Shown here: positions 7,077 to 50,503 of the stretch, piece after piece
Numbering within the stretch: the first letter of the stretch is position 1
Layout: every line of letters begins with the position of its first letter
Source: Qipengyuania pacifica
GTDB lineage: Bacteria > Pseudomonadota > Alphaproteobacteria > Sphingomonadales > Sphingomonadaceae
Assembly (NCBI RefSeq): GCF_019857205.1
Contig: NZ_JAHWXO010000001.1
Location: 1-64,000, forward strand
DNA length: 64,000 bases
Reading direction: 5' to 3'
Program-made: the position numbers and the translations under genes
Notes under the pieces: generated by a model
What the model was told of the DNA's origin: nothing
The model's input: the letters and a program-made list of their open reading frames with translations, nothing else
Databases searched by the model: none

Positions 7077-8209
7077 CCGAGGCACTCCCGCAAGGTTGTA
7101 ATTAGAGCGGTCGCATCCTCGATCGTGTTGTACACGTGCGGCGTAACGCGGAGTGAGGATCCGCGTAGCGATACATGCACTTGGGCAGCGGCCAGCCTGT
7201 CGGTAAGCCCGTCCGGCACTTTGTCCGGGAATTCCAGCGCAAGGAAATGGGGGGCGCGAATACCGATGGGCGCAGCAGAGAGGCCGAGTTCGCCTGCAGC
7301 GCCAGCAATCGATTGCGTCGCCGCGCCTAGTGTTTCGGCGATCCTTGCGACACCGAATTCGAGCAGGAAATCGAGTGCGGCGCTTGCCCCCATGAGCAGG
7401 GGCGGGTTCGATTTTTCGCCAACGTCAAAACGCCGCGCGCCAGGCTGGAAATCATCACGGTAATCAACCAGCCTAGAGAAATCTTCCGATCCTGCGCGAT
7501 TGATCCAATTATGTTCGATCGGATTTCCGCCATGATGTTTGGGCGCCACATACATCATGCCGATACCGTAAGGCCCCATGAGCCATTTGTAGCAGGCAGC
7601 GACGGCGAAGTCCGGCTGCACTGCGGCAAAATCTATCGGCATGGCGCCCAGCGACTGGGTCAGGTCCAGCACCAGAGCCGCGCCCATCTCGCGACACTTG
7701 GCGCCAACTGCGACCAGATCGACCACGCGGCCATCGGCCCAGTGGTTGTTCGGCAAGGCTACGATGGCGGTATCGGGGCCGATCGCGTCCATCACGGCTT
7801 CGGTCCAGCAGTCCTTCCGGGGTCTCCGAACCGCCACAATTTCCCCGCCGCGTTCCTGTGCCAGTTCGCGCCAGCCATAGACATTGGACGGGAACTGGTC
7901 GGCCAGAGTCACGATCTTCTGCCCGCGAGCCACGGGTAGATTCCTGGCCGCAACTGCAAGCGCGTAGCTGACGGACGGGACGATCGCGATACTGTCCGCC
8001 TCCACTCCGGCAAGCCGGGCCGCGCGACTGCGAAAATCTTCTGCCACCGAGAAGAAATCGGCCGGACGGAAATTCCACGGCTGTTCCTTCAACCGCGAAC
8101 CTTGGACCATCGCATCGCTGACGCTGCGCGATAACGGCGCCATGTAGGCACAGTTCAAATAGTGCACGCCTTCGGGGATGGCGAACCGGTCGCGCTGCGA
8201 TGCGATCAT
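7073..8209 (-). CDS. Class V aminotransferase (PLP-dependent)
   Basis: A 378-residue fold-type I PLP enzyme. The PLP-binding lysine is in CYKWLMGPYG. The aspartate contacting the pyridine nitrogen is in LDLTQSLG. The ATG at 8209 begins just after the maeB stop (4-bp gap), so the two genes are probably co-transcribed. The family covers cysteine desulfurases, kynureninase-like and isopenicillin-N epimerase-like enzymes. A true kynureninase is encoded elsewhere in this window, so this one probably has a different substrate, which sequence alone does not reveal. Confidence 0.85.
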   Translation of the reverse strand: MIASQRDRFAIPEGVHYLNCAYMAPLSRSVSDAMVQGSRLKEQPWNFRPADFFSVAEDFRSRAARLAGVEADSIAIVPSVSYALAVAARNLPVARGQKIVTLADQFPSNVYGWRELAQERGGEIVAVRRPRKDCWTEAVMDAIGPDTAIVALPNNHWADGRVVDLVAVGAKCREMGAALVLDLTQSLGAMPIDFAAVQPDFAVAACYKWLMGPYGIGMMYVAPKHHGGNPIEHNWINRAGSEDFSRLVDYRDDFQPGARRFDVGEKSNPPLLMGASAALDFLLEFGVARIAETLGAATQSIAGAAGELGLSAAPIGIRAPHFLALEFPDKVPDGLTDRLAAAQVHVSLRGSSLRVTPHVYNTIEDATALITTLRECLG

Positions 8210-37866: not shown

Positions 37867-37964
37867 CCCCGGAACAAGTCCGGGGTGACGAGGGTGGATG
37901 ACGTACCGGGTGACGCAAGAAGGACCGGTTTTCGCTTTCTGGTCACCCCGGACCTGTTCCGGGG
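37867..37964. repeat. Inverted pair of REP-like palindromes
   Basis: CCCCGGA-N5-TCCGGGG at 37867-37885, followed by GTGACG, and its opposite-orientation partner at 37946-37964, preceded by GTCA. They form an inverted pair immediately downstream of the GIY-YIG gene. The same core appears in the tandem array at 38310, in the protease gene at 40375 and at 44719. Confidence 0.85.
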
Positions 37965-37970
37965 TGGTGC

Positions 37971-38285
37971 TTACTTGTGGGGCAGCGGCGGGAAACCATG
38001 TTCTTCCGCAAGATCGATCCAGTCGGGGTTGTTCTGTTCGATGACGTTGAACTTCCACTGGCGGGGCCAGCGTTTGACCGTCTTTTCGCGAGCGATGGCA
38101 TTCTCGATATCGTCATGCGCTTCGAACCACACGAGGCGTTTGATGTCGCGCTCGCTCGTGTAACCGCCGAAGGTGTCGGCGCGGTGCTGGTGAACCCGCG
38201 AAAGGAGATCTGACGTTACGCCGGTATAGAGCCGCCCGCGGTAATGACTGGCAAGGATGTAGACCGTCGGTTCGAACGTTCGCAT
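37971..38285 (-). CDS. GIY-YIG nuclease family protein
   Basis: A 104-residue protein. GIY-YIG motif variant VYILASHYRGRLYTGVTSDL, the catalytic Arg region (LLSRVHQH), a downstream Glu-containing WFEAHDDIENAIAREK (active-site Glu) and KRWPRQWK are typical of the short UPF0213-like COG2827 group. It is flanked on both sides by copies of one palindromic repeat and sits on the minus strand inside the plus-strand GTA operon. Whether it acts on these repeats is an open inference. Confidence 0.9.
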   Translation of the reverse strand: MRTFEPTVYILASHYRGRLYTGVTSDLLSRVHQHRADTFGGYTSERDIKRLVWFEAHDDIENAIAREKTVKRWPRQWKFNVIEQNNPDWIDLAEEHGFPPLPHK

Positions 38286-38309
38286 CTTGGATTAGTGAAA
38301 GAAGCACCG

Positions 38310-38434
38310 CCCCGGAACAAGTCCGGGGTGACGAGTCCGGAACAAGTCCGGGGTGACGAGTCCGGAACAAGTCCGGGGTGACGAGGCCGGAACAAGTCCG
38401 GGGTGACGAGGCCGGAACACGTCCGGGGTGACGG
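38310..38434. repeat. Five tandem copies of a 25-bp palindromic unit
   Basis: The core CCGGAACAAGTCCGGGG, followed by TGACGAG, recurs with a period of exactly 25 bp (GGAAC at 38314, 38339, 38364, 38389 and 38414). The fifth copy has one change (ACACG for ACAAG). A degraded sixth unit follows. Each unit can form a small GC-rich hairpin. It lies 25 bp upstream of the GIY-YIG start codon. Confidence 0.92.
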
Positions 38435-40374: not shown

Positions 40375-40877
40375 CCCCGGAACAGATCCGGGGTGACATT
40401 CCGAAACAGGTCCGGGGTGACAGGGCGGCGCCGGTCCTGCGCATTGCGGGTTATGCGGCGTTGTTCGACCGGCCCGACGGTGCGCGCGATACGATCCGGC
40501 CCGGGGCATTCACGCGCACGCTGGCCGAACGCGAAGGGCGCTTTCCTCTATACTGGCAGCACCGGCCCGAGCGCCGCATCGGCTGGGTCGAGATGGCGGG
40601 CGAGGATGGGTGCGGGCTGCGGATCATTGCCAGCATCGACAATCCGGGCGGGCGCGCTGCCATGCTGCTGCGCCGGCGCGCGGTGAGCGGCCTGAGCTTC
40701 GGCTACCGTGCGCGGGCCTATCGCCACACGCCGCAAGGCCGCGAACTGGCCGAGATCGATCTGTTCGAGGTGAGCGTGGTGACGCATCCGCTGCAACACG
40801 GGGCGCGCGTGCATTTTTTATCTGCGCCCTCAAACGCCGGGCGCGAGCCGTCCGGCTCGCTTGGCTTCGCGGCATAA
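40371..40877 (+). CDS. GTA prohead protease, HK97 family (gp4)
   Basis: A 168-residue U35-type protease starting at GTG 40371. The core (IAGYAALFDRPDGARDTIRP, then the catalytic His in LYWQHRPERRIG and the catalytic Ser in VSGLSFGYRAR) is complete. Two repeats of 24 bp in the N-terminus encode PEQIRGDI and PKQVRGDR, which are in-frame copies of the REP-like palindrome. It matures the capsid by cleaving its N-terminal delta domain. The C-terminus is followed by a 240-nt spacer. Confidence 0.92.
   Translation: MTPEQIRGDIPKQVRGDRAAPVLRIAGYAALFDRPDGARDTIRPGAFTRTLAEREGRFPLYWQHRPERRIGWVEMAGEDGCGLRIIASIDNPGGRAAMLLRRRAVSGLSFGYRARAYRHTPQGRELAEIDLFEVSVVTHPLQHGARVHFLSAPSNAGREPSGSLGFAA
40375..40424. repeat. 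REP-like palindromes within the protease coding sequence
   Basis: Two adjacent units (CCGGAACAGATCCGGGG and CCGAAACAGGTCCGGGG, each followed by TGACA) have a period of 24 bp, unlike the 25-bp period of the array at 38310. A 24-bp period preserves the reading frame through both copies. The first begins four bases after the start of the GTG codon. Confidence 0.88.
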
Positions 40878-44718: not shown

Positions 44719-44743
44719 CCCCGGACCATGTCCGGGATGACGG
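44719..44743. repeat. Single REP-like palindrome between gp11 and gp12
   Basis: CCCCGGACCATGTCCGGG followed by ATGACGG. Same family as the units at 37867, 38310 and 40375, with a changed loop. It sits in the only sizable gap of the tail-gene block. Confidence 0.8.
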
Positions 44744-44767
44744 CACGCATTTCACAGGAGTTTCGCA

Positions 44768-47083
44768 ATGAGTTTCTGGCTTGCCCGCAAACGCAGCGGG
44801 CAACATTCCGATCATATCCAGCGGTTCGATCCGCGGTTCTGGACGGTCAATTTCCCGCGACCGATGATGGCGAGTGTCGTCACCACCGCGGCCGACGCGC
44901 TGCGGGTGGAGTGCAGCTTCCACCACGAGGGCGAGCTGGCCGGACTTATCTGGGAGAGCGAGGATACGCTCGACCACCCGCTGCTGGCGTATGAAACGCG
45001 GTCCGATTACGCACATTGCGTGCTGCGTTTTCGCTGGCGCAGCGGCGCGGTGCTGGCGCTGGACGTGCCGCATGGTCCGACGCTGACGATCGAGGGCCGC
45101 GATGCAGAAGGCAGGAAACGGGCCTGGTATGTGCGCCTGTGGAACTATGCCAACGGTTCGCCGACCGATGCGCAGATCGAGCTGCGGTTTTCCGAACTGG
45201 AATCGGGTTTTTCCCTGCCCGGCGAGGCGATCCATCCGCATGATATCGAGCGCATGTTCATCAGCCTGGCCCCGCAGGGCTATGTCGAGGGTAGCGAGGC
45301 AGTGTTGCCGACACGCGTGGATGGCTGGGCCGAAATGTCCGCCATAGGGTGCGAAGGCGCAGGCGCCATGCTGGCCATCGGCGACGTGCTGATCCCCGCG
45401 CATGGCGAGCAGATCGCCACCGCCTATGACGACAGTTTCAACCAGACCCCCGCACGACTGCTACGCAGCGCCGAAGGCCTCGGCTACCGCGGACGGATCG
45501 TCCATTATGTAGGGATGAGCCATTTTTTCCGGCTCGAGCCGCTGGGCGGCGGACATTACGTGAGCCTTGCCGGCGGAGTGTTGAACGAACCCTGCGCGGC
45601 CTGGCACCGATCCTTTGCCGAACAAGCGAAGATCCGCGATTTCGACGTGATCTGGTCGCTATCCTACGAATTGTTCGACGCGCATTGCTGGAACGACTGG
45701 AAGCAGCGCGCGCATGACGGATCGCCCGCGCTGACCGGGTGGGAACCGCCATCGACCCTGTTGTCGCCCGCGCATGAGGGCGCGATGAGCTATCTGCGGC
45801 AGGTCGCAAACGCCTTCGTTGCGATTGCGCAGGCCGCGGGCCTTCCGGTGCTGTTCCAAATCGGCGAGCCGTGGTGGTGGGTCCAGCCTGACAGCGGCGC
45901 GCCCTGCCTGTACGATAATGCGACGCGGGCCGCGCTGGGCGGATCGCCTGCGATAATCGCGGATATGCGTGCGCCCATCGACGAAGCGCAGCGCAATGTG
46001 CTGGACGCAGCGGGCGCATTGCTGGCCCAGTCGACCGCCGCGCTGGCGCAATCCGTGCGCGATGCGGCAGGCGGCGCGGCGGAAATCCTGCTGCTGGCCT
46101 TTACGCCGACCGTGCTGAACCCGAGCATGCCGGAACTTTACCGCGCGAACCTGCCCACGGGCTGGGCATGGCCCGCCTTCGACCGGCTGCAGCTGGAAGA
46201 TTACGACTGGCTGACGGACGGGGCCGATGCCGAACGGCGGCGCGGCATCGCCTTTGTTACCCAGCGGCTCGGCTATCCGGTCGCCCGGCAGGATTACATG
46301 GCCGGTTTCGTGCTGCTGGCAGAGGATGCCGAAACCTACTGGCCACGGATCGACGCCGCGCTGGACGAGGCGCGCGAGCGCGGCGTGACGCAGCGGTTCG
46401 TCTGGGCGATGCCGCAGATTTCGCGCGACGGTTACACCCGCCTGCCCCCACCCGGAGAAGACACAATGATCCCGTTCGACGATGTCGCCTATCCGCTTAC
46501 GCTGGGCCGGGACGCGGCGGCGAGCCCTGAATTTTCGACCTCTGTCGCGGTGACCGCATCGGGGCACGAATATCGCAATGCGCTGTGGTCCGATGCCCGG
46601 ATGCGATACGATGTCGGTCCGGGGATAAGGTCCGAAGCGGAACTGGGCACGCTGATCGCCTTCTTTCGCGCGAGATACGGCCCTGCCCGCGGTTTTCGCC
46701 TGCGCGATCCTTTCGATTTCAGTTCCGCCGCGATGACCGGCACGCCGACGGCCAGCGATCAGCGCATAGGAACGGGCGACGGCATGGCCAGCCGGTTCCG
46801 GCTGGTGAAGAATTACGGCGGGCAGCAGCGCCGGATCACCCGCCCGCAACCCGGCAGCATACGCATTGCCGTGGGCGCTGTGGAGACTGCGGCATGGCGA
46901 TACGAGACAGGCGGCTGGATCGTGTTCGACAGCGCGCCGGCAGCGGGCGCGCCGATCACGGCTGGCTATCTGTTCGATGTGCCGGTGCGCTTTGCCGAGG
47001 ACCGGCTGGACGTCAGCGGCGTGTCCTTTGCCGCAGGCGAGGCGCCTTCCGTTGCGCTGATCGAGATACGCGAGGCCGCATGA
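44768..47083 (+). CDS. GTA distal tail protein (gp12, DUF2460) fused to a large N-terminal domain
   Basis: A 771-residue protein after AGGAG. Residues 567-771 are a complete DUF2460/TIGR02217 unit (IPFDDVAYPLTLGRDAAASP ... GFRLRDPFDFSS ... GQQRRITRP), about the size of a stand-alone gp12. Residues 1-566 are an added module. The N-terminal beta-rich part is followed by a probable TIM-barrel, glycosidase-like region (IWSLSYELFDAHCWNDWK, FQIGEPWWWVQPD, FDRLQLEDYDWLT). A second ATG at 46466, with GGAGAAG upstream, coincides with the domain boundary. Similar fused or non-contractile tail-sheath proteins are known in some siphophages. Confidence 0.85.
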   Translation: MSFWLARKRSGQHSDHIQRFDPRFWTVNFPRPMMASVVTTAADALRVECSFHHEGELAGLIWESEDTLDHPLLAYETRSDYAHCVLRFRWRSGAVLALDVPHGPTLTIEGRDAEGRKRAWYVRLWNYANGSPTDAQIELRFSELESGFSLPGEAIHPHDIERMFISLAPQGYVEGSEAVLPTRVDGWAEMSAIGCEGAGAMLAIGDVLIPAHGEQIATAYDDSFNQTPARLLRSAEGLGYRGRIVHYVGMSHFFRLEPLGGGHYVSLAGGVLNEPCAAWHRSFAEQAKIRDFDVIWSLSYELFDAHCWNDWKQRAHDGSPALTGWEPPSTLLSPAHEGAMSYLRQVANAFVAIAQAAGLPVLFQIGEPWWWVQPDSGAPCLYDNATRAALGGSPAIIADMRAPIDEAQRNVLDAAGALLAQSTAALAQSVRDAAGGAAEILLLAFTPTVLNPSMPELYRANLPTGWAWPAFDRLQLEDYDWLTDGADAERRRGIAFVTQRLGYPVARQDYMAGFVLLAEDAETYWPRIDAALDEARERGVTQRFVWAMPQISRDGYTRLPPPGEDTMIPFDDVAYPLTLGRDAAASPEFSTSVAVTASGHEYRNALWSDARMRYDVGPGIRSEAELGTLIAFFRARYGPARGFRLRDPFDFSSAAMTGTPTASDQRIGTGDGMASRFRLVKNYGGQQRRITRPQPGSIRIAVGAVETAAWRYETGGWIVFDSAPAAGAPITAGYLFDVPVRFAEDRLDVSGVSFAAGEAPSVALIEIREAA

Positions 47084-47895
47084 GACGCGCGTTCTTTGCA
47101 AGCGAGCTCGATACGACGGCAAGCTGGTGGCGCATCTATCGCTGCGACGGCGTTACGCTGGGCTTTACCACGCACGACCGCGATCTGTGGTTCGACGGCA
47201 TCGTCCACCGCGCCGGACCGGGCATGCTGCCATCGGCCATTCGCGTGACATCGGGGTTCGAAGGCGATCCCGGCGATATCGAAGGCGCATTAAGCCATGC
47301 GAGCGTGACGGCGGCCGATCTGGCCGGTGGCCGCTTCGATGCAGCGGAAGTCGAATGTGGCGTGGTCGATTGGGAGACGCTGGAACGCGCATCGCTTTAT
47401 TCAGGGTCCATCGCGGGCGTCACCAGCGAGGGGGCGGGGTTCCGCGCCGAACTGGAATCGGCGAAGGCGCGACTGGCGCATGACCCGATCCCGGTGACCG
47501 GCCCGACTTGCCGGGCACGGTTCTGCGGCCCGGGCTGCGGATTGAACCCGGCAGCGTTCGAAAAGCGTGTGCGCGTGACGGCGATCGACCGGGACACGCA
47601 GACCTTGCGCGTCGATCTGGCCGATGCATCGGCCTATCGCTTCGGGAGCCTGCGCTGGATGGATGGCCCCGCCAACGGGCTTTCAGCGCGGATCGTCGAC
47701 ACGGACGGGCCGGTACTGATGCTGGCGGGACGGATCGACCCCGACTGGTCGCCGGGCCTGCGGGTACAATTGCGCGAGGGCTGCGACCGGACCGTGGCCA
47801 CCTGCGCCGCCCGCTTCGACAATGCCGTGAACTTTCAGGGTGAGCCGTTCCTGCCGGGCAACGACATGCTGGCGCAATATCCGGTCGCCCGATGA
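47080..47895 (+). CDS. GTA tail hub protein (gp13, DUF2163)
   Basis: A 271-residue protein. ASWWRIYRCDGVTLGFTTHD and the C-terminal CDRTVATC, NFQGEPFLPGND are DUF2163 hallmarks. CRARFCGPGC and CDRTVATC form a four-cysteine set consistent with the iron-sulfur cluster known in related hub proteins. ATG overlaps the gp12 stop. It connects the distal tail to the fibre hub. Confidence 0.94.
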   Translation: MRRAFFASELDTTASWWRIYRCDGVTLGFTTHDRDLWFDGIVHRAGPGMLPSAIRVTSGFEGDPGDIEGALSHASVTAADLAGGRFDAAEVECGVVDWETLERASLYSGSIAGVTSEGAGFRAELESAKARLAHDPIPVTGPTCRARFCGPGCGLNPAAFEKRVRVTAIDRDTQTLRVDLADASAYRFGSLRWMDGPANGLSARIVDTDGPVLMLAGRIDPDWSPGLRVQLREGCDRTVATCAARFDNAVNFQGEPFLPGNDMLAQYPVAR

Positions 47896-48323
47896 GCCTG
47901 TGCGGCGACGCGCTCGCCCAGGCGGCACAAAACCTGATCGGGTCCCCTTTTCGCCTGCACGGACGCAACCGGGAAACCGGGCTCGATTGTATCGGGGTGG
48001 TAGGGGCCGCGCTGGCCGATTGCGGACTGCAGGTGCGCTGGCCGGAGGGGTACCGGTTGCGCAATAGCGGCATCGCGCGGTGGCTGCAGTTTGCCGGGAT
48101 TAACGGGCTGCAAAGCTGCACCGGCAATATCCGGCGCGGCGATGTCCTGCTGACCCGGCCCGGCCCGGCGCAGCACCACCTTCTCATCGCGCTGGGGGCC
48201 GACGGCTTCGTCCACGCCCATGCAGGGCTGCGGCGGGTCGTCTGCCAGCAGCTTGTCACCCTTGATCCTCTGCTCGCGCAGTGGCGGATCGATCCCGATC
48301 AGGAGCAGACATGGCAACTCTAG
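47892..48323 (+). CDS. GTA NlpC/P60 cell wall peptidase (gp14)
   Basis: A 143-residue NlpC/P60 domain. Catalytic Cys in LDCIGVVGAAL, His in GPAQHHLLIALG and a further His in FVHAHAG; IGSPFRLHGRNRETGLDC is the lead-in. It should degrade peptidoglycan during delivery. Coupled by ATGA to gp13; its last 13 bp contain the gp15 start. Confidence 0.94.
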   Translation: MSLCGDALAQAAQNLIGSPFRLHGRNRETGLDCIGVVGAALADCGLQVRWPEGYRLRNSGIARWLQFAGINGLQSCTGNIRRGDVLLTRPGPAQHHLLIALGADGFVHAHAGLRRVVCQQLVTLDPLLAQWRIDPDQEQTWQL

Positions 48324-50503
48324 TTCTCGGCGCCTTCGGGACGCTGGTGGGCGGCCCGCTGGGCGGCGCCATCGGTGCGACGCTGGGCCGCAGTCTCGAT
48401 GCGGGCATCATCGGTTCGCCACGCCGCGAAGGCCCGCGGCTGAAGGAGCTGGCGGTGAGCACGTCGAGCTATGGCAGCGCCATCCCCGCGCTATACGGCA
48501 GGGTCCGCGTGCCCGGCACGATTATCTGGGCGAGCGACCTGAGCGAAAGGCGCGAATCCAGCGGGGGCGGCAAGGGCCGGCCTGCAACGACGCGTTACGC
48601 CTATTCCGTATCGCTCGCCGTGGCGCTGTCGAGCCGGCCGATCGACGGCGTGGGCCGTATCTGGGCGGATGGCAATCTGCTGCGCGGTGCGGCAGGCGAC
48701 CTCAAGACCGGAGGGGTGCTGCGCATTCATACCGGCCATGCCGACCAGTTGCCCGATCCGCTGATGGCCGCCAGCATCGGTGCGCGATGTCCTGCCTATC
48801 GCGGCTGCGCCTACGCCGTGTTCGAGGATCTGGCGCTGGAAGATTTCGGCAACCGCATACCGGCGATCAGCTTCGAAGTGTTCGCCGGAACGGCGCAGGC
48901 GGTGGTGGAAGACATTGCGCGGCAGGCCAGCATGGAGTGCGAGGGAACCGGGTTTCCCGAACTTGGCGGCTTCGTACACGAGGGCGGCGGGCTGGTAGCG
49001 GTACTGTCGCAGGTGAAGGGCCTGCGACCCATACATGCCGCAATGCGCGACGGGTATGTCATCGTCGCAGGGGATATGGCGCCGGAGGACGTGCCGATGC
49101 TGCCGCCCGCCGTGGCCGCACCGGACGGCGAGTTCGGGCGCGCGAGCGGTACGGCGCTGTCGCGTCGGCAGGGCGCATCGCAAGGGGCCAGCTTGCTGCG
49201 CTATTACGATCCGACCCGCGATTACCAGCCTGGACTGCAGCGATCCGAAGGCGAGGATGGGGGCGGAACTATGGAGTTTCCCGGCGTCTTTCAGCCTGAA
49301 GCCGCACGATCTCTTCTGGCAGGAGCGGCAAGGCGGGAATGGCTGCGCGGCGAAAGGCTGGCGTGGCGGACGAACCGGATCGACCCGGCGCTGGGCCCCG
49401 GCAGCATCGTGCGGGCACCCGGTCATCCTGGGCTGTGGCAGATCACCGCCTGGGAATGGCGCGACACGGGAATCGAGCTGGACCTCGCCCGCTACGCACC
49501 CGCGGTAGGGGCCAGCCAGCCAGCGGATGGCGGCGCGGCCTGGTCGCCGCCCGATCGCTTGCCGGTCGAAACGCGGCTGCGCGCCTTCGAACTGCCGTGG
49601 GACGGCACGGGGCAGAGCAGCGTGCCGCAACGCTTTGCCGCGGTGAGCGCGCCAGCGGGGCGCTGGGGCGGCGCGATGCTGTATCGCGAGAGCGCCGACA
49701 CGCTGGTGCCGATCGGGCACAGCGGCCCGCAGCGCGCCGTGGGCGGGATATTGGCGGAAGCCCTGCCGCCCAGCCCCGGTCTGCGGTTCGACGCGACTGC
49801 GCGAGTGAGGGTGCGGCTGGACGATTACGAAGCGGCATTGGAACCGGCCGGGCTCGATGCGATTGCGCGGGGATCGAACCGCCTGCTGATCGGCGGGGAG
49901 ATCGTGCAGTTCGCGCAGTGCCAGCTCGAAGGTAACGGGATCTGGCAGCTCTGCGGGCTGCTACGGGGCCGCGGCGGAACCGAGATCGAGGCGCTGGCAG
50001 GGCATGAGCCGGGTGCACCGGTCACGCTTCTCGACGATCGGCTGGTTCCGCTTCCCGCGAATCCATATCTGGGCGATGGCGACCGGATCGCGGCGATCGG
50101 AGCGGGAGACGACGCGCCCGTTCTGGCCGAATTCGAGAACAGCGGCCGGACGTGCCGCCCCCTGCTGCCAGTGCATCCGCGCAGCGAGCAGGATGCGCTC
50201 GGCAATTTGGCCTTGCGCTGGACGCGCCGGGCGCGTGGCGGCTGGAGCTGGCCTGACGGGGTCGAACAGCCGCTGGTCGAACAGGATGAACTGTATGAAG
50301 TGGGGCTGGGCGACCCGGATCGACCCGTCCGAATATGGACGACGGCCGGACCGCAGCTGGTCCTCGAAGCGGGCGAGATCGCCGCGCTCGGCGAATCATA
50401 CGAGGGCGCGGCCCTGTGGGTCCGGCAGAAGGGCAGCTTTGCAGTTTCGCCTCCACTGCATCTCATTTCTCTATCAACTTTGGCTGAAAGGAAGATGCCA
50501 TGA
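48311..50503 (+). CDS. GTA megatron-type tail tip protein (gp15), short form
   Basis: A 730-residue protein from ATG 48311 with AGGAG 5 bp upstream. The N-terminal glycine-rich hydrophobic leader (LVLGAFGTLVGGPLGGAIGA) and SYGSAIPALYGRVRVPGTII, then the phage tail-3-type domain and the C-terminal beta-rich Rcc01698_C-like segment, are present. RcGTA gp15 is over 1,300 residues and carries a GTA TIM barrel. That barrel is missing here, while gp12 carries an added TIM-like module. Confidence 0.88.
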   Translation: MATLVLGAFGTLVGGPLGGAIGATLGRSLDAGIIGSPRREGPRLKELAVSTSSYGSAIPALYGRVRVPGTIIWASDLSERRESSGGGKGRPATTRYAYSVSLAVALSSRPIDGVGRIWADGNLLRGAAGDLKTGGVLRIHTGHADQLPDPLMAASIGARCPAYRGCAYAVFEDLALEDFGNRIPAISFEVFAGTAQAVVEDIARQASMECEGTGFPELGGFVHEGGGLVAVLSQVKGLRPIHAAMRDGYVIVAGDMAPEDVPMLPPAVAAPDGEFGRASGTALSRRQGASQGASLLRYYDPTRDYQPGLQRSEGEDGGGTMEFPGVFQPEAARSLLAGAARREWLRGERLAWRTNRIDPALGPGSIVRAPGHPGLWQITAWEWRDTGIELDLARYAPAVGASQPADGGAAWSPPDRLPVETRLRAFELPWDGTGQSSVPQRFAAVSAPAGRWGGAMLYRESADTLVPIGHSGPQRAVGGILAEALPPSPGLRFDATARVRVRLDDYEAALEPAGLDAIARGSNRLLIGGEIVQFAQCQLEGNGIWQLCGLLRGRGGTEIEALAGHEPGAPVTLLDDRLVPLPANPYLGDGDRIAAIGAGDDAPVLAEFENSGRTCRPLLPVHPRSEQDALGNLALRWTRRARGGWSWPDGVEQPLVEQDELYEVGLGDPDRPVRIWTTAGPQLVLEAGEIAALGESYEGAALWVRQKGSFAVSPPLHLISLSTLAERKMP

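Follow-up and report, generated by a model that had tools for sequence, protein, structure and literature searches.

A conserved in-frame start inside gp12 points to long and short distal tail proteins in sphingomonad gene transfer agents

A barrel-Dit fusion gene in a gene transfer agent cluster

In the window, by which we mean the whole 64,000-nucleotide stretch analysed here, positions 44768–47083 of the forward strand hold one 771-aa open reading frame, gp12 of an RcGTA-like gene transfer agent (GTA) cluster. The cluster is co-linear, running terminase, portal, protease, capsid, tape measure, gp12, hub, peptidase, megatron. Portal, protease, capsid, gp12 and hub score above their NCBIfam cut-offs; terminase, tape measure, peptidase and megatron are in order but below them, although the peptidase is above its Pfam cut-off. 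Recognized here from its genes, this is an RcGTA-like GTA cluster of a Qipengyuania-like sphingomonad, and the best plausibly named isolate relative of gp12 is in Qipengyuania qiaonensis (86% over residues 1–565), in searches that may omit records of the window's own genome. Downstream on the same strand lie gp13, the hub protein (47080–47895; TIGR02218, PF09931/PF09356), whose start overlaps the gp12 stop in an ATGA, gp14, an NlpC/P60 peptidase (47892–48323; PF00877), and gp15, the megatron (48311–50503). The gp15 frame is open from a GTG at 48281, but an AGGAG followed by the ATG at 48311 looks like the true start and gives 730 aa.

The full-length gp12 (84.7 kDa) starts at the ATG at 44768, behind a Shine-Dalgarno (SD) sequence AGGAG at 44756–44760 (duplex energy −6.9 kcal/mol). 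An NCTSP_N domain (residues 17–205, 44816–45382; PF23844, E 9.7e-94) is followed by an NCTSP TIM barrel (residues 210–556, 45395–46435; PF23845, E 2.6e-172), a short disordered linker (46436–46465) and a DUF2460 distal tail protein (Dit). The NCTSP_N and TIM-barrel_NCTSP matches score 312 and 573 bits against curated cut-offs of 27, and the latter spans its full 348-position profile. The DUF2460 match, at residues 571–768, likewise covers all 205 profile positions, and this part passes the curated cut-off of TIGR02217 (192.2 against 136.65 bits), its NCBIfam name being 'phage distal tail protein, Rcc01695 family'. The stand-alone Dit of about 210 aa that TIGR02217 describes is matched in size only by the predicted short product discussed below, not by the 771-aa frame.

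The first-pass annotation of this DNA had read the 566-residue extension in front of the Dit part as TIM-barrel-like and had called for a structure prediction and for comparison with GTA barrels and non-contractile tail sheath proteins. The Pfam matches and a confident AlphaFold2 model made from 61 aligned sequences (pLDDT 91.3) both bear the reading out: the extension forms a β/α barrel behind NCTSP_N. Confidence falls below 50 only at the junction (residues 563–567) and in two segments of the Dit part (593–596 and 599–604). Among the matches listed by Foldseek against the PDB, phage N4 gp64 came first (TM 0.64 by target length; E 2.4e-23) and N4 gp65 next, then R4C Dit (0.82) and many glycoside hydrolases, including the PgaB hydrolase domain; RcGTA gp15 was absent among those listed. 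Two acidic residues, Glu367 (codon 45866–45868) in a GEPWWW motif and Glu477 (codon 46196–46198) in a QLEDYDW motif, are invariant in 61/61 aligned rows and follow predicted strands 361–366 and 473–477, which makes them candidate active-site acids. Two conserved acids after strands would be expected of a glycoside hydrolase barrel, and many of the fold matches are to such enzymes, although no glycoside hydrolase family was assigned. The glycosidase-like barrel would probably bind or cleave a surface polysaccharide as the particle attaches.

The relatives of the barrel are phage non-contractile tail sheath (NCTSP) proteins. In N4 (PDB 9lc0, 9yf4) the start of gp65 resembles NCTSP_N and gp64 resembles the barrel (E 5e-47 by sequence). 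The available text of PMC12633501 describes the N4 tail as surrounded by a six-fold sheath of gp64:gp65 heterodimers, with gp65 (1382 aa, ten domains) as the receptor-binding protein. N4 differs from gp12 in dividing the module between two proteins of a podovirus tail, with no fusion to Dit. The same module also occurs in the tail cluster of Lokivirus-type siphophages (Acinetobacter phage Loki gp17, Halfdan, IMEAB3, Pavpe01), where the gene order is tape measure, Dit, NCTSP fusion.

The gap before gp12 also carries a palindromic repeat, CCCGGACCATGTCCGGG, at 44720–44736 (no strand assigned), which stands outside the mechanism proposed below. The pattern CCCGGAC-N4-TCCGGG with at most one mismatch has 14 matches, both strands counted, against 0.27 expected. 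They fall at 37868–38427, 40376–40392 and 44720–44736, the last directly upstream of gp12, and include five places at 25-bp steps between the terminase and portal genes. Amid the repeat clusters of that terminase-portal gap, a 104-aa antisense frame (37971–38285, reverse strand) has no NCBIfam match but looks, from a motif, like a GIY-YIG nuclease.

An in-frame start at the domain junction

The stand-alone-sized Dit unit begins, as had been proposed, at M567, the ATG at 46466–46468, with 566 residues before it. A GGAGAAG lies at 46454–46460 (duplex −6.6 kcal/mol), so that the SD site noted earlier is present, but 5 nt rather than 7 bp separate it from the ATG (8 nt counted from GGAG). The predicted product of this start (46466–47083) is a stand-alone Dit of 205 aa and 22.0 kDa. 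It resembles RcGTA g12 (Rcc01695, PDB 6tba) in its sequence, its place in the cluster and its full DUF2460 profile, and the internal start lies no more than about one codon from that of RcGTA g12 (query residue 569 aligns to chain residue 2). RcGTA g12 itself, unlike gp12 of the window, is a stand-alone protein of 210 aa with no barrel in front.

To follow the junction among relatives, we aligned gp12 genes from the bacterial order. Of the 99 order genomes with an NCTSP-TIM match, 92 were taken besides the window's own, giving 94 places; with one class-sample genome (G352) these make 95 loci, and with the window 96 rows. NCTSP and DUF2460 share a single frame in 92 of these rows (the window and 91 genomes). 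The four set aside are L115, with a stop in its barrel part, and L129–L131, which have another architecture. Six genomes with fragmentary matches (G035, G047, G072, G098, G140, G144) were kept out of the alignment and inspected by tblastn, and L045 and L072 stay in the 92-row counts despite a shortened NCTSP part in that frame.

The internal GGAGAAG-ATG arrangement is conserved beyond chance across these 92 aligned gp12 genes. The codon at the M567 column is ATG in 62, GTG in 27, TTG in 2 and CCT in 1, and the CCT row (L101) has an ATG one codon later, so that a start codon stands exactly at the junction in 91/92. All 27 junction valines are encoded by GTG, against a GTG share of 48% among valines gene-wide; among the 66 columns with at least 25 valines the junction alone is all GTG, and the next highest reaches 78%. 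The codon has also changed often: with the junction columns excluded from the FastTree tree and L101 from the count, at least 18 changes among the three start codons are needed. Where ATG is substituted, GTG or TTG takes its place in 29/30 cases at the junction, compared with 31/182 at seven other Met-rich columns. A start codon with an SD occurs there in 90/92 rows exactly and in 91/92 within one codon, the best of 768 well-filled columns, and the runner-up unrelated column has one in 42/92 rows. Furthermore, the start lies in a linker of low model confidence, and a constraint of the fold is therefore an unlikely cause of its conservation.

SD pairing at the junction is strong, with a mean of −7.7 kcal/mol compared with −2.1 at 1137 other in-frame ATGs. 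However, acidic linker codons are SD-like by nature: a synonymous-codon null with the protein held fixed already averages −5.7 against the observed −7.7, and only 4/92 rows fall individually below 0.05 (70/92 below 0.5). SD strength was therefore rejected as the main evidence, and it is the restriction to ATG, GTG and TTG that carries the argument. Compared with the SD of the long start, the internal one is the stronger on average (−7.8 against −6.3 kcal/mol; stronger in 55/87 genes), and in the window the two are about equal. Near the internal start the mRNA has less structure than the gene has on average in 92/92 rows, to which the base make-up of the linker could contribute.

Wider collections gave the same picture. 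In the best 80 genome-collection loci and the best 80 viral-collection loci, NCTSP and Dit are fused in 154/160; the junction carries a start codon in 153/154 of these (77/78 and 76/76) and an SD-like 4-mer in 152/154. When the viral collection was scanned again with a distant query, 79 of the best 80 loci were fused, with an SD-like 4-mer in 79/79 and a start codon exactly at the junction in 74/79 and one codon off in 5/79. These sets overlap one another and the 92-row set (L134 and G169, for example), so we pooled all four, 325 loci in total, into 288 distinct 60-nt junctions. A start within one codon with an SD of −4 or better is present in 284/288; three of the exceptions have an ATG with a weaker SD and one has no start. 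This last, L150 of Pontixanthobacter aquaemixtae (near 7693), is the sole locus of the 325 without a start at or beside the junction, having AAG there with the SD kept.

Distribution of the barrel and its relation to gp15

The fusion is not particular to the window's genome. NCTSP-TIM was found in 99/196 order genomes sampled and DUF2460 in 102/196, the same 99 and three without NCTSP-TIM (G021, G039, G065). In a sample of the class, NCTSP-TIM is present in 4/289 genomes, of which three belong to the window's family and the fourth, G352, is of a hub type described below, and GTA_TIM (PF13547), the barrel family of RcGTA g15, in 29/289. No separate NCTSP and Dit genes were seen in GTA-type relatives: three split frames (L145, L196, L237) arise from a frame break or stop inside the Dit part and not at a gene border, and L223, L272, L283 and L368 lack the Dit part at what the match and locus ends suggest is a contig end. 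In the order sample the NCTSP part is interrupted or shortened in G010, G035, G047, G072, G140 and G144, and at L045 and L072, and the long form has thus not been retained in every genome. In six pairs that part is under purifying selection, with dN/dS of 0.09–0.30 for the NCTSP part and 0.09–0.16 for Dit (synonymous distances near or above 1 in some), and the long form therefore seems to matter.

Several database records of such genes have unexpected labels. A contig filed as a Dehalococcoidia MAG (L211) carries an NCTSP-Dit gp12 97% identical to the window's, and one filed as a Rhodobiaceae MAG (L204) carries such a gene at 59%; both are perhaps mislabelled or contaminants. Viral-collection contigs reach 98% identity to the window's gp12, and many of the short IMG/VR 'virus' contigs with NCTSP-Dit genes (L214–L293, L304–L383) may be cellular GTA clusters.

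The NCTSP module is also found on other tail proteins. At L129, L130 and L131 and on nine viral contigs (L387–L395) it is fused to gp13 instead; because the figures for L388 and L395 match those for L387 and L129, these hub-type fusions count as 10 distinct ones. Dit was found in all but L390, each time as a separate frame. Loki, Halfdan, IMEAB3, Pavpe01 and Lebethron have the module at the N-terminal end of the gene that follows Dit, and Dit is separate (about 205 aa); 'hub' rests here on gene position because the gp13 profile missed the C-terminal part. In a tree of 40 barrels, the gp12-type (23), hub-type (10) and Loki-type (5) sequences each fall on one side of a branch (SH-aLRT 87, 98 and 100). 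A start with an SD of −4 or better was found in the linker of 0/10 hub fusions, two of which (L391, L394) have a start with a moderate SD just inside the barrel's end, and in 1/5 Loki-type genes (Lebethron, GTG with a strong SD). The predicted dual start therefore sets gp12-type fusions clearly apart from the other two types, albeit on few sequences (10 and 5). Two genomes, G013 (L129/L102) and G026 (L130/L107), hold both architectures, an NCTSP-Dit fusion and a separate Dit with an NCTSP-hub fusion. On the viral contig L392 the DUF2460 frame spans 489 aa between stops, some 280 of them ahead of the Dit domain, possibly another N-terminal fusion.

In RcGTA the barrel sits on the megatron g15 and not on gp12; the peripheral domain, residues 230–744 in the available text of PMC7296036, is called a TIM-barrel domain in that of PMC13420450. 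It is likewise a baseplate barrel, and there would be three per particle if each megatron carries one. The first-pass annotation was right that gp15 lacks such a barrel here: GTA_TIM matches neither gp12, gp15 nor anything else in the window's genome, nor any of the 196 order genomes sampled. The window's gp15 aligns to RcGTA gp15 over 11–200 (to 23–211) and 343–666 (to 913–1248), leaving about 143 residues where RcGTA has about 702; the roughly 560 missing residues fall in the stretch that holds the peripheral domain, most of which is thus absent. A gp15 frame lies nearby in 88/92 rows, the longest of 958 codons stop to stop and none above 1100, compared with 1304 aa in RcGTA. It had been suggested that the gp15 barrel moved into gp12, and the sizes would suit this, with 566 extra residues in gp12, as would the finding that none of the 196 order or 289 class genomes sampled has both barrels. 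However, hhalign gave no homology between NCTSP-TIM and GTA_TIM (probability 0.5%), a comparison of small alignments (10 and 4 sequences) that leaves room for very distant homology; the gp12 barrel instead matches phage NCTSP proteins, and in phages that barrel sits on the hub or on a gene in hub position. We consider relocation highly improbable. Of the comparisons called for at the outset, that with phage tail sheath proteins thus gave a match and that with GTA_TIM none, and because the profiles do not match, this looks like replacement, one barrel class standing in for another, unrelated in sequence, between alphaproteobacterial groups.

A proposed pair of Dit forms in the tail tip

Taken together, a conserved in-frame internal start with an SD stands at a domain boundary, the pattern of a dual-start gene, and this favours the earlier suggestion of two products. 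On this sequence evidence gp12 very probably encodes a long (85 kDa) and a short (22 kDa) Dit, and we are confident that both would be made. The best explanation, which we regard as likely, is that gp12 is a dual-start gene. Ribosomes starting at 44768 would make NCTSP_N and the glycosidase-like barrel, a flexible linker and Dit, and those starting at 46466 Dit alone. Both forms share the Dit domain, and a six-membered ring could therefore mix them; we think it somewhat more probable than the contrary that both enter it. Fusing 566 residues to the Dit N-terminus would place a large module near the baseplate contact, while the short form would keep the free N-terminus that touches the baseplate in RcGTA, where the available text of PMC7296036 lists Ala2 of Dit among the parts binding it. 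Mixing in the short form would also bring the count of bulky barrels below six per particle, plausibly to three, as many as RcGTA would carry on its three megatrons.

A 3:3 ratio of long to short forms is a tentative extension of this model. The same text describes the RcGTA Dit hexamer meeting a baseplate of threefold symmetry made up of trimers of hub and megatron, and that of PMC10276861 gives six Dit, three hubs and three megatrons for R4C. Three long and three short Dit might alternate as a symmetry adaptor, letting the six-fold tail meet the three-fold baseplate with exactly three barrels, although we hold this to be speculative. A barrel on a trimeric protein, such as a phage hub or the RcGTA megatron, would need no second start, and only fusion to the hexameric Dit would have required one, kept across a bacterial order. 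Two-polypeptide phage endolysins offer a parallel: in the available text of PMC9430671, a single gene with an in-frame internal start gives a full-length and a C-terminal product, and some of these assemble together, at 1:5 in one case. They are, however, other proteins, lytic enzymes rather than parts of a virion ring or a GTA.

Two other readings of the conserved junction have to be weighed against this dual-form ring. The element might act in the protein or in translation, an SD-like sequence in the acidic linker slowing ribosomes at the domain boundary, and the SD-like nature of the linker codons under the synonymous null would fit this. However, pausing predicts neither an ATG, GTG or TTG after the element nor a valine that is always GTG (27/27) at a nearly fixed distance, and the linker is otherwise variable and modelled with low confidence; we judge this reading improbable. 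A more serious alternative, if still an unlikely one, is that the internal start works but only the short Dit enters the ring, the long form being made in small amounts or serving as a separate accessory, a decoration or chaperone-like protein, so that fusion merely tethers or doses the module. Stand-alone Dit occurs in RcGTA, Loki-type phages and hub-type loci, and so suffices in them; of the two SDs the internal one is stronger on average, and the NCTSP part is interrupted in some genomes. Against this, NCTSP and Dit share one frame in 154/160 and 79/80 loci, contig ends or breaks accounting for the others, and purifying selection acts on the NCTSP part in the six pairs, so the covalent link seems to matter.

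The domains are known from Pfam and the in-frame isoform strategy is likewise known. Their combination in a GTA, as a dual-start Dit of sphingomonads, was not found in the available text of the literature searched, GTA comparative papers included. If the dual-start reading is true, the tail tip of sphingomonad GTAs, unlike that of the solved RcGTA, is built with two forms of the same protein, for which barrel dose and the six-to-three symmetry step offer a checkable reason. As an in-frame initiation site within a structural gene of viral descent, the internal start would be unusually well conserved, and annotation of gp12 as one frame hides its predicted short product. L150, with AAG at the junction, provides a natural test case for loss of the short form.
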